Of a DNA stretch of 64,000 bases, positions 24,017-36,098 are shown piece by piece; position 1 is the first letter of the stretch, and each line of letters begins with the position of its first letter. The notes under the pieces are model-generated. The model searched no databases. It worked only from the letters and a program-made list of their open reading frames with translations, and had not been told where the DNA came from. This DNA is from Variovorax sp. Root318D1 (GTDB lineage: Bacteria > Pseudomonadota > Gammaproteobacteria > Burkholderiales > Burkholderiaceae_C): the NCBI RefSeq assembly GCF_001424835.1, contig NZ_LMCQ01000001.1:342284-406283 (forward strand), read 5' to 3'. The position numbers and the translations under genes are program-made.

Positions 24017-25390
24017 TCAAATCGACTTGGTCGAGCGTCGTAGCTCGCGGTACAGCGTCGCGCGGCTGATGCCCAGCCGGCGCGCCGCCTCGTCCTTGTC
24101 GCCGGCGGTCTCCGCGAGCGTCTTCTGGATGCAGGCATCGCGCTCGCGGTCAAGATGTGCTTGCAAGGTGGTCGTCGCCGTTGGTCCTCGCTGGCCGGCA
24201 ACGGCCTGCGGGTGCTTCGCGGCGGGCACTTCCGGCAGCCCGGGCTCGCCCGAGAGCAGGAAGCGCAGCAGCGCGGCTTCCAACTGCCGCACGTTGCCCG
24301 GCCAGTCGAAGGCCTGCCATCGCGCGCGAACAGATGGGGGCACGCGGCGCCCCGGCAGGCCTTCGCGCAGCGCAATGCGCTCCAGCAGCTGCTCGGCCAA
24401 CCACTCGAGGTCGTCGCGCTCGCGCAGCGCGGGCATGTGCACGCCGAGCACATTGAGCCGGTAGTACAGGTCGGCCCTGAACTGGCCCGCGTCCACACGC
24501 TCTTGAAGGTCGCGGTGGGTGGCGCAGACGACGCGGGTGTCGATCGGGATCGGCGAGACGCCGCCTACGCGCACGATCTCCTGGTTCTGTACGGCGCGCA
24601 GGAGGCTGGCCTGCAGGCTGAGGGGCATGTCGCCGATCTCGTCGAGAAACAGCGTGCCGCCGCTCGCGAGTTCGAACTTGCCCGGCTTGCCGCGTGTCCG
24701 GGCGCCGGTGAAGGCACCGCCTTCGTAACCGAAGAGCTCCGCATCGATCAGCGATTCGGGAATGGACGCGCAGTTGACCCACACGAACGGGCGCCGGGCG
24801 CGCGGCGACAGCGCATGGATCGCGTTGGCTGCCAGTTCCTTTCCGCTGCCGGTTTCGCCCTGGACGAGCACGGGCAGCGAGAGCGGCGCGGCCTGTTCGA
24901 TGGCCGCGCGCACCGCGTCCATCCGGGTGCCTTGGCCCAGGATGTCGTCGATGCCGTAGCGCGTGGTCCACGGCGTGGGAGGGCTATGGATGGCGCGCCC
25001 CTGGTCGCCGACGACCGCCACCGCCTTCTTCAGCGCCGCCATGTTGGAGAACAGCGCCAAACCGACCGCGCCGATGATTCGCTCGTCCTGGTAGACGGGC
25101 ACCTGCCGCGCGAGCAACTGGTGGCCCCGCACTTCGAGCGGCATCATGGTCACGGAGAGATCTCCGCGCGCCACGTGGTGCAGGCGCGTCTTCGGCGACA
25201 CGACATCGGTGATGTGCCGGCCGATGAAATCTTCCTGCGGGCCGCCCAGCAGGCGGCAGTAGGGCGCATTGATGAGCACGACGCGGCCGTTGGTATCGAC
25301 AGCCACCAGGCAATCGGACACATGGTCGAGCACGCGGCGCAGGAACTCTGCCTCGTTCTGGCCGGAGCCGAACCATTCGGGAAAGGGCAT
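24017..25390 (-). CDS. Sigma-54-dependent activator, PAS-AAA+-Fis (AcoR/XylR-like)
   Basis: 457 residues. An N-terminal PAS domain (DHVSDCLVAVDTNGRVVLINAPYCRLLG) senses the inducer. The AAA+ domain has Walker A GETGSGKE, the sigma-54 contact loop GAFTGA and Walker B GGTLFLDEIGD. A Fis-type helix-turn-helix (DEAARRLGISRATLYRELRR) ends the protein. Divergent from the hydrolase / transporter / nitrile hydratase genes, which have a -24/-12-like element. A GTG at 25426 would add 12 residues; the ATG at 25390 is preferred. Confidence 0.92.
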   Translation of the reverse strand: MPFPEWFGSGQNEAEFLRRVLDHVSDCLVAVDTNGRVVLINAPYCRLLGGPQEDFIGRHITDVVSPKTRLHHVARGDLSVTMMPLEVRGHQLLARQVPVYQDERIIGAVGLALFSNMAALKKAVAVVGDQGRAIHSPPTPWTTRYGIDDILGQGTRMDAVRAAIEQAAPLSLPVLVQGETGSGKELAANAIHALSPRARRPFVWVNCASIPESLIDAELFGYEGGAFTGARTRGKPGKFELASGGTLFLDEIGDMPLSLQASLLRAVQNQEIVRVGGVSPIPIDTRVVCATHRDLQERVDAGQFRADLYYRLNVLGVHMPALRERDDLEWLAEQLLERIALREGLPGRRVPPSVRARWQAFDWPGNVRQLEAALLRFLLSGEPGLPEVPAAKHPQAVAGQRGPTATTTLQAHLDRERDACIQKTLAETAGDKDEAARRLGISRATLYRELRRSTKSI

Positions 25391-25527
25391 TTTTTGTCTC
25401 GTGATTGCGACGTTGGGACTCAACACTGAGACTAAGGCATGCGCTCCAGGCCGTCAATCGAAGCCGTGGTGAGCATTTCTTCAAGCAAATCAAGCACTTG
25501 TCGAAATTGCGAAGAGGTCGGTCCAGC

Positions 25528-28112: not shown

Positions 28113-29135
28113 ATGGCTCCCGCCAAGATCCCCGTCACGATCGTCACCGGCTTCCTCGGGGCCGGCAAGACCACGCTCGTGAACCACCTGCTGGCGCAGT
28201 GCAGCGGCACCTACATCGGCATCATCGTCAACGAGTTCGGCGAGGTCGGCATCGATGGGCAGCTGATCGTCGCCGATGACCAGCCGCTGATCGAGATCAC
28301 CAATGGCTGCGTCTGCTGCACGGTGCGAAAGGACCTGACAGCGGCGGTGAACGAGCTCCTGGAACGCGCCGAACGCCCGATCGAGCGGCTGATCATCGAG
28401 ACCTCCGGCCTGGCCGATCCCGCTCCGGTGCTGCAGAGCTTTCTTGCCGATCCCGCCTTGTTGCAACTCGTGGAACTCGAGTCGGTGGTCACCGTCGCCG
28501 ATGCCCGTCACATCCTGCTCCATATCGGCGACGACATCGTGCGCGAGCAGATCGCCTTCGCCGACGTGATCGTGCTCAACAAAGTCGAGATCCCCAGCGC
28601 ACCAGAGCTGGAGCAACTCGAGAGAGCACTGCGCCGGCTGAATCCGCCCGCGCACCTGGTCCGGACCGAGCGAGCGCAGGTTTCGGCCGCCGAGCTGCTG
28701 GGCACGAAGCGCTTCTCGCTGCCGCACGTGCTGTCGATCGAACCCGATCTGCTGGACGGCGAGGCGCATGACCACGAGCACGACACCTCGATCGTCTCGT
28801 GCTGCATTGAAACCGATGGTGCAATCGATCCGGAGCGGTTCAGCCGCTGGATGAACCAGCTGGTCCAACGCGAAGGCGCGCGGCTGATGCGCACGAAGGG
28901 CGTGCTTCACTTCGACGGCGAGGCGCGGCAGTTCCACTGTCACAGCGTGCACATGCTGCTCGATGCACGGCCTGGGCGGCGGTGGGGCCCCGACGAGCCG
29001 CGCCGCAGCAAGCTGGTCTTCATCGGGCGGGAACTGGCGGGCGACGCCTTGCGCGAGGGCTTTCTCGGATGCCTGGCGGTTCAGCCTGAACGAACGCCGG
29101 CTCCTGCCGCCGAATCTGAAATGGAGCATCCATGA
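28113..29135 (+). CDS. CobW/P47K-family GTPase, probable nitrile hydratase metallochaperone
   Basis: 340 residues. Walker A GFLGAGKTT (residues 13-21), metal-binding motif C66-V-C68-C69, switch/Walker B segment IIETSGLADP and guanine motif LNKVE. The CobW C-terminal domain follows, with a His-rich stretch (HDHEHD). COG0523 GTPases load metals into target enzymes. Its stop overlaps the nitrile hydratase beta start (ATGA), so it very probably helps cobalt insertion. P47K activators are better known with iron-type enzymes, so the pairing with a cobalt-type site is notable. Confidence 0.9.
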   Translation: MAPAKIPVTIVTGFLGAGKTTLVNHLLAQCSGTYIGIIVNEFGEVGIDGQLIVADDQPLIEITNGCVCCTVRKDLTAAVNELLERAERPIERLIIETSGLADPAPVLQSFLADPALLQLVELESVVTVADARHILLHIGDDIVREQIAFADVIVLNKVEIPSAPELEQLERALRRLNPPAHLVRTERAQVSAAELLGTKRFSLPHVLSIEPDLLDGEAHDHEHDTSIVSCCIETDGAIDPERFSRWMNQLVQREGARLMRTKGVLHFDGEARQFHCHSVHMLLDARPGRRWGPDEPRRSKLVFIGRELAGDALREGFLGCLAVQPERTPAPAAESEMEHP

Positions 29136-29899
29136 AACTTCAGCATGCGCTGGGCGGTCTCGAGAACCTCGGGCCTGTGAGCGTCGAAACGCGAGTCTTC
29201 GTGCAGGAATGGGAGAAGCGCATCTTCGGCATCCACACGGTGATGATGGCCGAGAGCGCCCACCTCGCAGAGGCATTGCCCAGATATCCGATGGCCAGCT
29301 TGCCCACCACGTTCAAGCACACCTGGACCTGGGCCTCGCTGCGCACCGGTGCCGAGGGCATGCAGCCCTTCGAGTACTTCAAGTTCCGCTACTACGAGAA
29401 GTGGCTGATGGGCATCAGCCAGTTTTTTGTCGACAAGGGGTACATCACCGCCGAAGAGCTGGCGCAGTTGACTGCACGCTACCGCGCCCAGCCGGACGCA
29501 CTGCTTCCTGAGCGACCGAACGAAGCGATCAAACGCCAGATCGTCGACTACCTTCTGCAAGGCGATTCCAGCCTGCGGCCGCTGCCGCATGCACCGCGGT
29601 TCACGGTCGGCCAGACGGTGCAGGTGGCCGACCCCGCGGCGGCCGACCACACGCGGCTACCCGGCTACTTGCGCAACAAGAAGGGCACTGTCCGCGAGGT
29701 ATACCCGGGCGCCTTCGAGTATTTCTGCTCGACAGGACCGGACGGGTTGGAAGGACCGATGCCGGTGTACCGCGTTGCGTTCGATGCGCGCGACATCTGG
29801 GGTCCCGACCTCTGCGAACCGAATACGACGATCTACGCCGACCTCTTCGAGGTCTACCTGCAATGTCGAACGCCCAAGGAAGAAGAGAAAACGCCATGA
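29132..29899 (+). CDS. nthB: Nitrile hydratase beta subunit
   Basis: 255 residues. The N-terminal helical arm and the C-terminal SH3-like barrel (FTVGQTVQVADPAAADHTRLPGYLRNKKGTV) match nitrile hydratase beta. It pairs with alpha to hydrate nitriles to amides. The gene precedes alpha, the order used by high-mass cobalt-type enzymes. It overlaps cobW-like by 4 nt and alpha by 4 nt, a translationally coupled set. The DLCEPNTTIYADLFEVYL ending is typical. Confidence 0.95.
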   Translation: MKLQHALGGLENLGPVSVETRVFVQEWEKRIFGIHTVMMAESAHLAEALPRYPMASLPTTFKHTWTWASLRTGAEGMQPFEYFKFRYYEKWLMGISQFFVDKGYITAEELAQLTARYRAQPDALLPERPNEAIKRQIVDYLLQGDSSLRPLPHAPRFTVGQTVQVADPAAADHTRLPGYLRNKKGTVREVYPGAFEYFCSTGPDGLEGPMPVYRVAFDARDIWGPDLCEPNTTIYADLFEVYLQCRTPKEEEKTP

Positions 29900-30525
29900 T
29901 CAGCGATCTGTTCAAGTACAACGACGAGCGCGAAGCGGCGAGTGCCGCGAAGGTGCGCGCGCTGGAGGCCCTGCTGATCGAGAAAGGCGTGATCGGCAGC
30001 GACTCGGTCGATGCGGTGCTCGATCATTTCGAGAAGATCGCGGGACCGTTCAACGGCGCGCGCATCGTTGCGCGGGCATGGGTCGATCCGGCCTACAAGG
30101 AGCGCTTGCTCGCCGACACCCCCAAGGCCATTGCCGAACTTCAGCTGCCATTGGGCATGGAGGGCGCCGAAGGTGAGCACATGGCCGCAGTGGCCAACGG
30201 TCCGGGTGTGCACAACCTGATCATCTGCACGCTCTGTTCCTGCTATCCGTGGCCGGTGCTTGGGCTGCCGCCGTACTGGTACAAGGATCCGGTGTTCCGC
30301 GCCCGAGGCGTGCGCGAGCCGCGAGCAGTCTTGCGCGAGTTCGGCGTGCCGATAAGCGATCACATCGAAGTGAAGGTGTGGGACAGCAGCGCGCAGATCC
30401 GCTGGTTCGTTGTGCCTGAGCGGCCCGCCAACACTGATGGCTTCAGCGAAGAGCAACTGGCTGCGCTGGTCACGCCAGAGGCGATGATGGGCGTCGCGCT
30501 GGTACCGCCGCCTATAGCGGCCTGA
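29896..30525 (+). CDS. nthA: Nitrile hydratase alpha subunit, cobalt type
   Basis: 209 residues from the ATG at 29896. The metal claw is C111-T-L-C114-S-C116; Thr at the second position marks cobalt-type enzymes (iron types have Ser). The following YPWPVLGLPP and YWYKD segments complete the active site. The two inner cysteine positions (114 and 116) would be oxidised in the mature enzyme. A 4-nt overlap with beta gives the start; an earlier in-frame ATG (29863) would sit deep in the beta gene. Confidence 0.95.
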   Translation: MISDLFKYNDEREAASAAKVRALEALLIEKGVIGSDSVDAVLDHFEKIAGPFNGARIVARAWVDPAYKERLLADTPKAIAELQLPLGMEGAEGEHMAAVANGPGVHNLIICTLCSCYPWPVLGLPPYWYKDPVFRARGVREPRAVLREFGVPISDHIEVKVWDSSAQIRWFVVPERPANTDGFSEEQLAALVTPEAMMGVALVPPPIAA

Positions 30526-30536
30526 GGCGGAGTGCC

Positions 30537-30884
30537 ATGTTCACTCGCTTCGAGGAATATGCAGCTTCTCAGATGTTGGGCCATGCCGACTCGCCGCCGC
30601 GCAACCAGGGCAAGCTGTTTTTTGCAGAGGCCTGGCAACGGCAGCTCTTCGGGTTGACGCTGGCCGTGGCCAAGCAGGGGCACTTCGACTGGGAGGACTT
30701 CCGCCAGCACTTGATTGAATCGATCGGCGACTGGGAACGGCTCGACTGCACTGCGCAGCCGCCCTGGGACTACTACGAGCGGTTCTTTGGGGCGCTGCTG
30801 CAGGTTCTGGCGCGGCAGCAGGTGGTCACTGAAGGCGAACTGGCCTGGGTCCTGGCCGATCGGCCGTTGCGGAGCCATGAATGA
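30537..30884 (+). CDS. Nitrile hydratase accessory protein (P14K/NHase activator family)
   Basis: 115 residues resembling the N-terminal arm of the beta subunit (NQGKLFFAEAWQRQLFGLTLAVAKQGHFDWEDFRQHLIESI). Such proteins act as self-subunit-swapping chaperones that deliver cobalt-loaded alpha subunit to apoenzyme. Start ATG 11 nt after the alpha stop; its stop overlaps the cobalt transporter start. Confidence 0.9.
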   Translation: MFTRFEEYAASQMLGHADSPPRNQGKLFFAEAWQRQLFGLTLAVAKQGHFDWEDFRQHLIESIGDWERLDCTAQPPWDYYERFFGALLQVLARQQVVTEGELAWVLADRPLRSHE

Positions 30885-31714
30885 ACGCCGAGTGGCCGTC
30901 CTTTTCGGGCTTGGTCCTGATGTTCGCTTTGGGGTTGCGGCACGGGTTGGACCCGGACCACATTGCCTGTATCGACGGACTGACCTGGCGGGCACTCAAT
31001 CATTCGCACGCCCATGCAGGTTGGATTGGGACCTTGTTCGCGCTCGGTCACGGCCTGCTGGTCACGCTGATCGCGGTGGCCGTCAGCAAGCTGGCGCTGC
31101 ACTTCGATCCGCCGGCTCTTGTGGTGACCGTTTTCGGATGGATTCCCACCTTGCTGCTGATCGTGGTTGGTTGCCTCAATCTGCGCCTGCTGTTGCGCAG
31201 GGACGAGGCCTACGCGCCGACTGGTTGGAGAATGAGCCTGATCCCTGCGCGCTTGCGGCAGCAGACGAGTGCCTGGTCGGTGGTGGTCATCGGCGTGCTG
31301 TTCGCCACCGTCTTCGATACCGCCACACAGGCGGCAGCCTGGGGCTACGTCGCCAGCAACAAGAACGGCGGTGCATGGGCTGCCTTGCTCGCGGGGATGA
31401 CCTTCACGGCAGGAATGATGGTCACCGATACGCTGGACGGCCGCATCATCTGCCGGATCGGCCGAGGCATCGAAAATCCCGAGGCAGGGCGCCGCGTGCG
31501 CCGGACACTGGGCTGGCTCATCGTTGCCATCTCATTTGGCGTAGCTGTCTACAACCTGGCCAAGGCGTTGTTGCCGGAAGTCGAACTCGACGACATGGCG
31601 TTTTCATTCGCCGGCGCTGCGCTGATTGTTGTCATGCTGGGCATCTGGGCGTGGAGTACCAGGCGCGCACGCAGTGCGCGAGCGGCCGTCATGCCGTCGG
31701 CTGGCGCACCCTAG
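30881..31714 (+). CDS. NiCoT-family nickel/cobalt permease (NhlF/HoxN-like)
   Basis: 277 residues with about eight membrane helices. The signature helix reads LGLRHGLDPDHIACIDGLT, the HX4DH-type metal site of NiCoT transporters, and LGHGLLVTLIAV and the TQAAAWG segment follow. In Rhodococcus, NhlF supplies cobalt to nitrile hydratase, and linkage here says the same. It overlaps the accessory gene by 4 nt and ends the operon; a cobalamin riboswitch starts about 65 nt after its stop. Confidence 0.93.
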   Translation: MNAEWPSFSGLVLMFALGLRHGLDPDHIACIDGLTWRALNHSHAHAGWIGTLFALGHGLLVTLIAVAVSKLALHFDPPALVVTVFGWIPTLLLIVVGCLNLRLLLRRDEAYAPTGWRMSLIPARLRQQTSAWSVVVIGVLFATVFDTATQAAAWGYVASNKNGGAWAALLAGMTFTAGMMVTDTLDGRIICRIGRGIENPEAGRRVRRTLGWLIVAISFGVAVYNLAKALLPEVELDDMAFSFAGAALIVVMLGIWAWSTRRARSARAAVMPSAGAP

Positions 31715-31779
31715 TGCCCGAGGCGGCGGCGCGCAAGACAACCGGGCAGCGCATCGCGCGAGCGGAGGTGACCGCTGTG

Positions 31780-32012
31780 ATCAGCCCGTTGGTGCTCGCT
31801 TCGTCTTTCCGGTCGAAGCGGTTCAACGGGAATCAGGAGGGGTGGTGCGGCAAGCCATCGCGCGCCCTAACCTGAGCTGCCCCCGCAACGTTAAGCGAAC
31901 GTGAGCCCTCGTGCTCGCCGCTCGTGTCTGTAGCCCACTAGGCAATCCGCGCAATCTGCGCGGCCTGGGAAGGGAACACGGGTCGTCTTCGCCAGCCCGG
32001 ATACCCGCTTTC
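31780..32012 (+). promoter_or_regulatory. Cobalamin riboswitch (class I)
   Basis: All main conserved blocks occur in order on the plus strand. They are GGTGCTCGC (31791), AACGGGAATCAGG (31825), the B12 box GAGCTGCCCCCGCAACG (31873-31889), then CCCACTAGG (31934), CTGGGAAGG (31964) and the closing GCCAGCCCGGATACCCGC (31991-32008). The CAGG/CCTG arms flank a long variable P3 stem. The downstream gene is an AraC/GyrI regulator 180 nt away, not a B12 or cobalt gene, while a cobalt permease lies directly upstream. So it looks orphaned or rearranged. Confidence 0.85.
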
Positions 32013-32191
32013 TCGTGCGGCTGCGGGCTCGTGGTCGCTTTCTCGGGTTCCGCAAACGTCTTGTCGTCCTGGCCACTCTGACTGGCACGCGGCCACAGTT
32101 GGCAACGAACGGACTTTCGCGGCCAGTCTGGGCCTGAGAGTCGCAAGATCGGCTAAGCAGACCGCCCGCGGCAGCGGCACACTTGGCAGTG

Positions 32192-33052
32192 ATGAGAACT
32201 GATCGAGCTGAGCAGAACTACAGGGTCCGTGTCGCGCGCATCGTTGCCGTGATCGTTGCTGACCCGATGGCGGAGCATCGCCTTGAAGATCTGGCGCGCA
32301 TGGCGCATTTCTCCCCGTACCACTTCCACCGCGTCTACAGCAGCGTCGCCGGCGAGACCGTTGCTGCGACAGTGCGTCGCGTGCGCTTGGCGCTTGCGAC
32401 ACGTATGTTGGAGAACAGCGTCCAGAGCATCACTCAGGTAGCTCTGGCCGTAGGCTATGAGAGCCCGCAGGCGTTCACGCGTGCCTTCGGCCAATTCACC
32501 GGCCAGTCCCCAAGCGAGTTCAAGGGGCAGATGCACCGGCTGGAATTGAACGCCGATGAGGCGCGGCACGAATCTGACCCCCAGGCAGCACCAACCGTGC
32601 GGATAGTCGATCGCCCCGCGCAGCGTGTGTATGCGCTGCGGCATCGCGGGCCACTTGCCACCATTCCTCACACGCAAAGGCGGCTGCACCTTCATTGCGC
32701 CACCAACGCCGTGTCGGAATCGCTCGGGGCGTCTTATGGCGATTCCGAGGACGCTGAGGGCTTCAGGTACTACGCTGCGGCCTCGTCGCCCGAGCCTTGG
32801 CCTGTCGTTGACGCAGAGATCGAAATGCTGGACATCCCGGCCGGCCGTTACGCGCTGCACTGCCTTGCCGGCCCTTACGCCCGTATCAGCGCGGCGATCA
32901 ATGCGCTCTACAGCCGGTGGCTGCCGGGTAGTGGCTATGAACCGGACGATCGGCCGACGTTGGAGCACTACATGAACTCTCCGCGCACCGCCACCCAAGC
33001 GGACCTGCGCACCGACCTGTTGATCCCCATTCGTTCCGCGAGCGCCCAATGA
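32192..33052 (+). CDS. AraC-family regulator with GyrI-like effector domain
   Basis: 286 residues: N-terminal AraC double helix-turn-helix (HRLEDLARMAHFSPYHFHRVYSSVAGET, ITQVALAVGYESPQAFTRAFGQFTGQSPSEF), then a GyrI-like domain (VRIVDRPAQRVYALRHRGP) of the Rob/SbmC type that binds cationic drugs or other ligands. Its 3' end overlaps the secreted hydrolase start by 4 nt. It lies 180 nt after a cobalamin riboswitch, in principle within reach of it. ATG at 32192 is preferred to the TTG three codons upstream. Confidence 0.9.
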   Translation: MRTDRAEQNYRVRVARIVAVIVADPMAEHRLEDLARMAHFSPYHFHRVYSSVAGETVAATVRRVRLALATRMLENSVQSITQVALAVGYESPQAFTRAFGQFTGQSPSEFKGQMHRLELNADEARHESDPQAAPTVRIVDRPAQRVYALRHRGPLATIPHTQRRLHLHCATNAVSESLGASYGDSEDAEGFRYYAAASSPEPWPVVDAEIEMLDIPAGRYALHCLAGPYARISAAINALYSRWLPGSGYEPDDRPTLEHYMNSPRTATQADLRTDLLIPIRSASAQ

Positions 33053-34495: not shown

Positions 34496-35833
34496 TCAGT
34501 TTGAAGGCATGCTCTCGAGCGTATCCACCGCGGCCTGCAGCCCCTCCAGCACACGCTCGGCCACCCATGGCGAGAAGTTCTTGGGCAATTGCGCCTGCAC
34601 TTCGCGGATCGCGCTGGGCGTGCGCTCAATCAACTGCTGGATGATGGCTTCGGCGTCGCGGGCATAGCCCACCTGCTGGGCGGTGCTGTTGAAATGCCGG
34701 CGCTGGATGGTGGCCATGGTGTAGTGCTTGTTCTTGCCGAGAAGCGCCATGGCCATCTTCACATCGCGTGGCGCCCACTGGTTGGGGCCCTTGCCGAGGA
34801 TGGGGTAGGTCGACATCACGTCATACATCTTCGTCAATTGGAAGCCGCCGCCGGCCAGCAGATGGATGCTGAAGTTCTTCGCGTGTCCATCCGGTGCGCG
34901 CAGCAGCCAGAACAGGACCTGTGAGGCCATCAACGTGCGCATGTCATCCGGAGCGGTCGCGGATTGTTGCAGCAGCGAAAAGAGCTTGCGCAGGCCAGGC
35001 CCTCCTTCGTTCTCGTACTTCACCAGGGGCGAGGTGCCCGTGGCTTGGCAGAAGTCTTCTTGGGGCAGTCGCAGGATGCGGCCGTTCGAGGTGCGCCTGT
35101 CGAAGCGTTCGACCACAAGGACGCGCTGTTTTCCGAACGAGGTGATGGTCGCGTCTGCAGTGGGTAGCCCGTACGCGCGCAGCAGCTTCAGGCAGAGCCA
35201 CTCGTTGTCCACGGAGGTGGAGAAGTCGGCCTGGAGTCCGCCGATCAGGCCCAGGGGGAGCTTGAAAATGTGTGTGGTAGGCGTGGTGCCCCGAGGCTTG
35301 TGCCAGGCGCCGTTCCACCATAAATAGGCGTCCTTTTCCTGCGCGCCGGCCAGCGAAATGCGGAAGTCGTCGTTTGGGTCGCCCGATGCGTCGAACTTGT
35401 CGGGGTTGACGACGCCCAGCAGGTGCCGCTCGATGGACTCGTCGTCGACGCGCACCGCTTGCACCTGATCGACGGCCGTTGGTGTCTCGGCCTCATCGAG
35501 GAGCTGAATGGCGCCCACGCAGTCGCGCCCGATGGCGCGTAGAAGGTCGAAGGCGTCTACCGAGCCCGTCTTGAAGCGCGCCGCCACGCGCTTGCGAATG
35601 GCATTGCTGTCGGGCAACAGGTTGTCAAAGTAGTGCTCGACGGCGGTGCCCTTGATGGGCTCGTTGTGCGGGTTGAAGGGCAGGGACAGGGACAGCGGGC
35701 GACCGACGTCCGAGCGAACCCAGGCGTCGTCGTAGTGAAGCTCCACGTCGCCGCGCGCGGGGATTGTCCAGCGGCCGACGCGTTCACCGTTGGACCAGAG
35801 GCCAAGGGTCTGACTGTGTGACCGACGGCCCAT
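34496..35833 (-). CDS. hipA: HipA-family kinase toxin
   Basis: 445 residues. HipA N-terminal domain, then the kinase core: P-loop-like ISLAGAQEKDAYL, catalytic RAPDGHAKNFSIH and metal-binding YDVMSTYP. HipA phosphorylates glutamyl-tRNA synthetase in E. coli and causes growth arrest when free of HipB. Start ATG is one base after the hipB stop. All catalytic motifs are present, so the toxin is probably active. Confidence 0.93.
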   Translation of the reverse strand: MGRRSHSQTLGLWSNGERVGRWTIPARGDVELHYDDAWVRSDVGRPLSLSLPFNPHNEPIKGTAVEHYFDNLLPDSNAIRKRVAARFKTGSVDAFDLLRAIGRDCVGAIQLLDEAETPTAVDQVQAVRVDDESIERHLLGVVNPDKFDASGDPNDDFRISLAGAQEKDAYLWWNGAWHKPRGTTPTTHIFKLPLGLIGGLQADFSTSVDNEWLCLKLLRAYGLPTADATITSFGKQRVLVVERFDRRTSNGRILRLPQEDFCQATGTSPLVKYENEGGPGLRKLFSLLQQSATAPDDMRTLMASQVLFWLLRAPDGHAKNFSIHLLAGGGFQLTKMYDVMSTYPILGKGPNQWAPRDVKMAMALLGKNKHYTMATIQRRHFNSTAQQVGYARDAEAIIQQLIERTPSAIREVQAQLPKNFSPWVAERVLEGLQAAVDTLESMPSN

Positions 35834-35834
35834 C

Positions 35835-36098
35835 TCACCACTCCGTCGTGCGTGGCCTGTCCGCTGGCGCGCCGCGCGCCCCCAACTTCAGGTCGAGGCC
35901 GAGCGCCGAGCACCAGGTCAGGAGTTGCTTGAAGCTCAACTCGTCAGGATGAAGTTCGAGGTAGGAAACTCGGTTCTGGCTGAGGTTCAATTTGGAGCCG
36001 ATGGCCGCCTGGTTCAGCTTCAGTCGTTTGCGCGTGCTGCGCAGCAGCTGTCCTAGCTGATCACCAGATACCAGAGGTTGGGCGGGAAGCGCGTCCAT
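35835..36098 (-). CDS. hipB: HipB-family antitoxin / repressor
   Basis: 87 residues with an XRE helix-turn-helix (LGQLLRSTRKRLKLNQAAIGSKLNLSQNRVSYLELHPDELSFKQLLTWCSALGLDLKL). It should neutralise HipA and repress the operon through the direct repeats just upstream. Antitoxin-first order is the hipBA rule. Confidence 0.92.
   Translation of the reverse strand: MDALPAQPLVSGDQLGQLLRSTRKRLKLNQAAIGSKLNLSQNRVSYLELHPDELSFKQLLTWCSALGLDLKLGARGAPADRPRTTEW

Follow-up and report, generated by a model that had tools for sequence, protein, structure and literature searches.

Why should a cobalamin riboswitch stand between a cobalt-type nitrile hydratase cluster and a gene for an AraC-type regulator? The question is raised by the 64,000-nucleotide stretch of Variovorax sp. 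Root318D1 analysed here, called the window below. The first-pass annotation of this DNA had placed a class I cobalamin riboswitch on its + strand, with the conserved blocks in order, and had offered two explanations: either the riboswitch lost its gene by rearrangement, or it makes a B12-sensitive link to the regulator. The covariance-model search that the annotation proposed as a check bore out the identification itself. An Rfam scan of the whole 64-kb window returned RF00174 (Cobalamin) at 31775-32026 on the + strand with 48.5 bits and an E-value of 4.6e-9, the gathering cut-off being 31.5 bits, and this was the sole match at gathering thresholds. The core helices and conserved blocks follow in order in both model alignments, with a few non-standard pairs, one of them at G31891T. 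The aptamer is not complete, however: where the model places the 3' arm of P1, the sequence is unrelated. Among 25 cobalamin riboswitches in 11 genomes, the window copy has the lowest Rfam score.

The genes on either side are those that the first-pass annotation had described. Upstream, all on the + strand, lie genes for a CobW-type GTPase (28113-29135), the beta (29132-29899) and alpha (29863-30525) subunits of nitrile hydratase and a nitrile hydratase accessory protein (30537-30884), identified from open reading frames with Pfam and NCBIfam. The last gene of the cluster, also on the + strand, encodes a NicO-type (NiCoT) nickel/cobalt permease (30881-31714, Pfam NicO), and its end is 60 nt from the start of the RF00174 match. 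The translated alpha subunit carries CTLCSC, which we take to be the signature of a cobalt-type nitrile hydratase. A sigma-54-dependent activator-like protein, recognized by eye from its translation, is encoded divergently beside the cluster (24017-25426, - strand). Downstream of the riboswitch, Pfam places an AraC-type regulator with a GyrI-like domain (32183-33052, + strand) and then a hydrolase-like gene with a sub-threshold DLH match, where a working cobalamin riboswitch would have a gene of B12 or cobalt metabolism. Further along, a HipA-like gene (34496-36098, - strand, Pfam) is preceded by a small gene that looks helix-turn-helix-like by eye.

The element in other Variovorax genomes

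We compared window positions 31400-32600 with 101 Variovorax genomes, including its own (G000), at E-values up to 1e-12, and found a full-length match in its own genome only. The riboswitch piece recurs in seven of the 100 others, at 92-95% identity in G030 (Variovorax sp. OV700), G083 (V. paradoxus DS1452) and G084, 86% in G024 and G027, and 77-79% in G026 and G112. It extends from 31697 in the first five of these (31687 in G024) and from 31788 in the last two, and the BLAST match ends at 32008 in every one of the seven. The piece to the left of the riboswitch has matches in G030, G083, G064 and G071 (Variovorax sp. J22R193) and, at 72-74%, in G119, G007 and G102, while the cluster at 28113-30884 has collinear DNA in G083, G030 and G064.

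The first-pass annotation had suggested looking in related genomes for a btuB/cbtA-like gene behind this locus, and the comparison did bring up B12 genes there: CobN and CbiC/CobH are encoded downstream of the riboswitch, on the same strand and contig, in all seven relatives. The gene order in DS1452 is nitrile hydratase, NicO permease, a riboswitch A (93.7 bits with Rfam), TonB receptor, PepSY_TM, a riboswitch B (64.5 bits), cobB, cobW and cobN, and riboswitch B is the element found in the window. The permease piece and the riboswitch B piece lie on one strand of this genome, collinear and 4.24 kb apart. Two cobalamin riboswitches (locus L048, 13868-14128 and 9650-9902, - strand) thus flank the TonB receptor and PepSY_TM genes directly after the nitrile hydratase-NicO cluster, which makes a cobalt enzyme, a cobalt permease and B12 synthesis genes neighbours in DS1452. 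A different arrangement is seen in G084 (locus L050, 8076-11116, - strand), where gyrB precedes a PepSY scrap and the riboswitch B-cob operon and the site holds no TonB or PepSY genes. Because gyrB stands there, this genome is rearranged at the left side too, and it is a separate rearrangement.

The state of the RNA and the AraC/GyrI gene

Aligned to its seven relatives and to RF00174, the window element is a 3'-truncated cobalamin aptamer at 31775-32008 on the + strand, corresponding to riboswitch B. In the relatives the segment after GGATACC reads GGCCAACGAGG (GGCCAATGAGG in G026) and holds the P1 partner of the 5' GTTGG. In the window this 3' arm is replaced after the junction, and the closing helix is absent. 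The window's P1 arms pair at -8.0 kcal/mol, no better than shuffled arms (-8.3 kcal/mol), although this control is weak, with the 5% level reached by only 7 of 18 relatives and G112_B likewise no better than its shuffles (0.65). The duplex is -13.2 kcal/mol or stronger in 16 of the 18 relatives tested, out of 24, six without the anchor motif having been left out; G026_B (-9.0 kcal/mol) and G112_B (-8.9 kcal/mol) also have weak duplexes. When the window sequence was ended at 32008, its Rfam score rose to 50.2 bits over model positions 1-171 of 189, so that it clears the cut-off either way. The same cut lowered G030 from 73 to 58.8 bits and G084 from 67 to 56.2 bits. The 3' side therefore adds nothing to the window copy and 11-14 bits to intact ones.

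A second element is missing beyond P1. Past the aptamer, at an equal distance, all seven B-type relatives keep CCTGCGGGGAAGCGGG, within which GCGGGG is the exact reverse complement of the aptamer's CCCCGC. The hexamer lies at +51 in all seven and at +60 to +76 in 11 of the 12 other non-A-type copies (18 of 24 compared overall), and is lacking in the five A-type copies and G064_C1. By itself it turns up in 11-42% of shuffled leaders, and it is the fixed +51 position in seven of seven that carries weight. A kissing loop between L5 and L13 has been described for cobalamin riboswitches (PMC10907184). Going by complementarity and by analogy with that loop, the GCGGGG element of the relatives is probably the expression platform, with GCGGGG as the L5-L13 kissing partner. 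In the window no GCGGGG was found within 190 nt, so that a recognizable platform of this kind, in which a loop would pair with L5, is lacking.

The core that remains is well preserved, with 4-5 differences in 221 pre-junction positions to each of the three nearest relatives. At 31891 (+ strand), where all 24 of the other riboswitches compared have a G, the window has a T, giving a non-standard pair in the model (alignment and NC line). Before the junction it departs at 31820 and 31891 from columns in which all seven other B types agree. Left out in turn, the three closest relatives depart at none, one and none of theirs (G030 0 of 177, G083 1 of 178, G084 0 of 177), and the other B types at more (G024 3 of 180, G027 2 of 179, G026 15 of 192, G112 4 of 181), so that only beside its three closest relatives are the two departures of the window conspicuous. 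When all copies are taken together, the window copy differs at 5 of 79 columns, of which 31891 alone lies before the junction, compared with 15 of 83 for G064_C1 and 3 of 81 for G026_B.

With the core in this condition, one could suppose that the AraC/GyrI gene, which starts on the same strand about 175-185 nt past 32008, captured the riboswitch and now responds to B12, with a new expression platform lying in 32009-32190. We consider this very unlikely, given that the P1 3' arm and the GCGGGG element are gone and the invariant G at 31891 is mutated. Between the aptamer and the AraC gene we found neither a sigma-70-like promoter nor a terminator-like site; across 31500-32400 there is no sigma-70-like promoter, and the sole terminator-like site, at 31612, lies ahead of the aptamer. 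The leader folds only somewhat better than its shuffles (z of -1.74, with 6 of 100 shuffles as good). Nor is the gene part of the relatives' cob neighbourhood. The AraC piece matches G096 at 92%, in DNA from 32126 on, and 20 other genus genomes at 70-79%; of the loci in these 21 genomes, 12 were scanned, and their fetched flanks contain no cobalamin riboswitch. (Four of the 12, L043, L044, L045 and L046, adjoin two tRNA genes with equal scores.) With the P1 arm and the probable expression platform lost and 12 of 12 scanned AraC loci free of riboswitches, we set the capture aside, and the B12-sensitive link to the regulator suggested by the first-pass annotation finds no support.

It would be just as surprising if the truncated aptamer folded and bound cobalamin without P1, acting as a B12 sensor in a transcript running from the nitrile hydratase and permease genes into the AraC/GyrI gene, its target changed after loss of the operon. 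Were the fragment still to act, it would illustrate the way in which riboswitches acquire new targets.

Break points and remaining B12 genes

The left join lies at 31696/31697, where the permease is fused to the tail of a PepSY gene. Homology to the permeases of G083 and G030 ends at 31693 and 31696, respectively; the window follows the G030 permease to GTCATGCCG and continues with the PepSY tail TCGGCTGGCGC. What precedes the riboswitch (31697-31774, + strand) is all that is left of a PepSY_TM gene, its 3' end, with matches in G030, G083, G084, G024 and G027; the counterpart gene in G083 is PepSY_TM by Pfam. The last permease codons, from about 31697, therefore derive from the scar. A few bases (GTCAT) are common to both parents at the join, as in deletion by short homology.

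Approaching the right junction, the window is identical to G030 and G083 through GGATACC (32005); beyond it the sequences diverge, the BLAST match carrying on to 32008. Sequence comparisons place here the junction and about 117 nt of unplaced DNA (32006-32125), which replace the P1 3' arm and the cob operon leader. A search for the origin of 32009-32125 gave no match in plasmids and, in 399 genomes of the family, nothing beyond its own DNA except seven weak hits, each only some 22-50 nt long. Within the genus, matches start at 32126 in G096 and at 32137 in G007, and G080 matches over 27 nt. Past the cob region of G083, 40 kb of sequence contain nothing matching the window at an E-value of 1e-8. 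As seen from G083, the right break is thus no simple deletion, and the DNA to its right was brought in from another place by rearrangement.

Sharp edges on both sides, and right-hand DNA unlike the cob neighbourhood of G083, would also be expected if a small riboswitch piece had been inserted as a moved fragment between the nitrile hydratase cluster and the AraC region. However, the same two pieces are collinear and 4.24 kb apart in G083, so that a deletion needs fewer steps at the left, and no CobN or CbiC match is left anywhere in the genome, which makes an inserted fragment highly improbable. Scarcely credible is an assembly error, since the junction, though known from this genome alone among those searched, falls within a contig of 568 kb, and the genome, whose listed completeness is 99.99%, lacks CobN and CbiC throughout.

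That genome (5.75 Mb in 25 contigs) gave no match to either CobN or CbiC/CobH anywhere. It holds two cobalamin riboswitches, the window copy and one at C3:18210-18458 (68.1 bits), which by eye precedes a TonB receptor-like gene. When the 11 kb of G083 from riboswitch A to cobN were compared with it, a 312-nt relic was found at 93% identity; the rest consisted of short matches, part of cobB at 68% in C3, and pieces resembling CobW, among them the CobW gene of the window's nitrile hydratase cluster. The 312-nt piece is the only one to recur at high identity over length. CobN absence is common in the genus, as CobN was found above the cut-off in 44 of 101 genomes. From the CobN and CbiC markers we infer that B12 synthesis has probably been lost in this strain. 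Two markers do not prove loss of the whole pathway, because either can occur alone, G071 having CobN without a CbiC match and G064 CbiC without CobN.

Origin of the truncated riboswitch

Taken together, the evidence argues that the riboswitch is very probably the 3'-truncated relic of a lost B12 operon, left by deletion and rearrangement. Direct observations are the homology, the gene order of relatives, the two break points and a genome without CobN or CbiC matches, and they lend strong support to the first explanation of the first-pass annotation, loss of the gene by rearrangement: in relatives, the riboswitch leads a cob operon that is absent here. The ancestor would have carried, in one orientation, the cobalt nitrile hydratase cluster with its NicO permease, a riboswitch-controlled TonB receptor and PepSY_TM, and further on another cobalamin riboswitch at the head of a B12-synthesis operon, cobB-cobW-cobN-cobH. 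Loss of about 4.2 kb by deletion would have brought the permease up against the PepSY tail. A second break would have cut the second riboswitch just past its GGAUACC segment, swapping the P1 3' arm, expression platform and cob genes for DNA carrying the AraC/GyrI gene. The RNA that remains probably no longer switches a gene.

These changes appear to be losses in this lineage, and recent ones. Neighbouring genes differ at 17.7% of their fourfold-degenerate sites from G030 and at 16.7% from G083. Assigning roughly half of this to the window's own branch predicts, for 221 aptamer positions free of constraint, some 19 changes since that split. Positions 31820, 31891 and 31930 differ from all three closest relatives; because G024 and G027 share the window base at 31930, two changes are clearly the window's own. 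The core differs less than neutral drift along the entire branch would predict, so the loss looks recent relative to the split, or else some constraint remains; this argument is a rough one.

As such, the locus is a clear example of an operon lost while its riboswitch persisted, and it would mark where one Variovorax lineage gave up the CobN-dependent route to B12. It is also a warning that a riboswitch match above the cut-off is not by itself grounds to infer B12 regulation of a gene. In the titles and abstract openings of the literature searched, we found no cobalamin riboswitch stranded by operon loss or tied to nitrile hydratase, and we do not claim its absence from print.

Compared with the RF00174 aptamer, the window keeps the core in order and scores above the curated cut-off, but it is without the P1 3' arm, a recognized expression platform and a downstream cobalamin gene, and one model pair is broken at an otherwise invariant base. 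The other riboswitch of the same genome, at C3:18210-18458, belongs to the same Rfam family; in contrast to the window copy, it has pairing P1 arms (-19.6 kcal/mol) and GCGGGG, and leads its receptor-like gene (by eye). With riboswitch B of G083, G030 and the other Variovorax genomes, the window shares the element itself, 77-95% identical, but whereas those copies have a conserved leader with CobN and CbiC behind it, the window copy ends at 32008 before an AraC gene.
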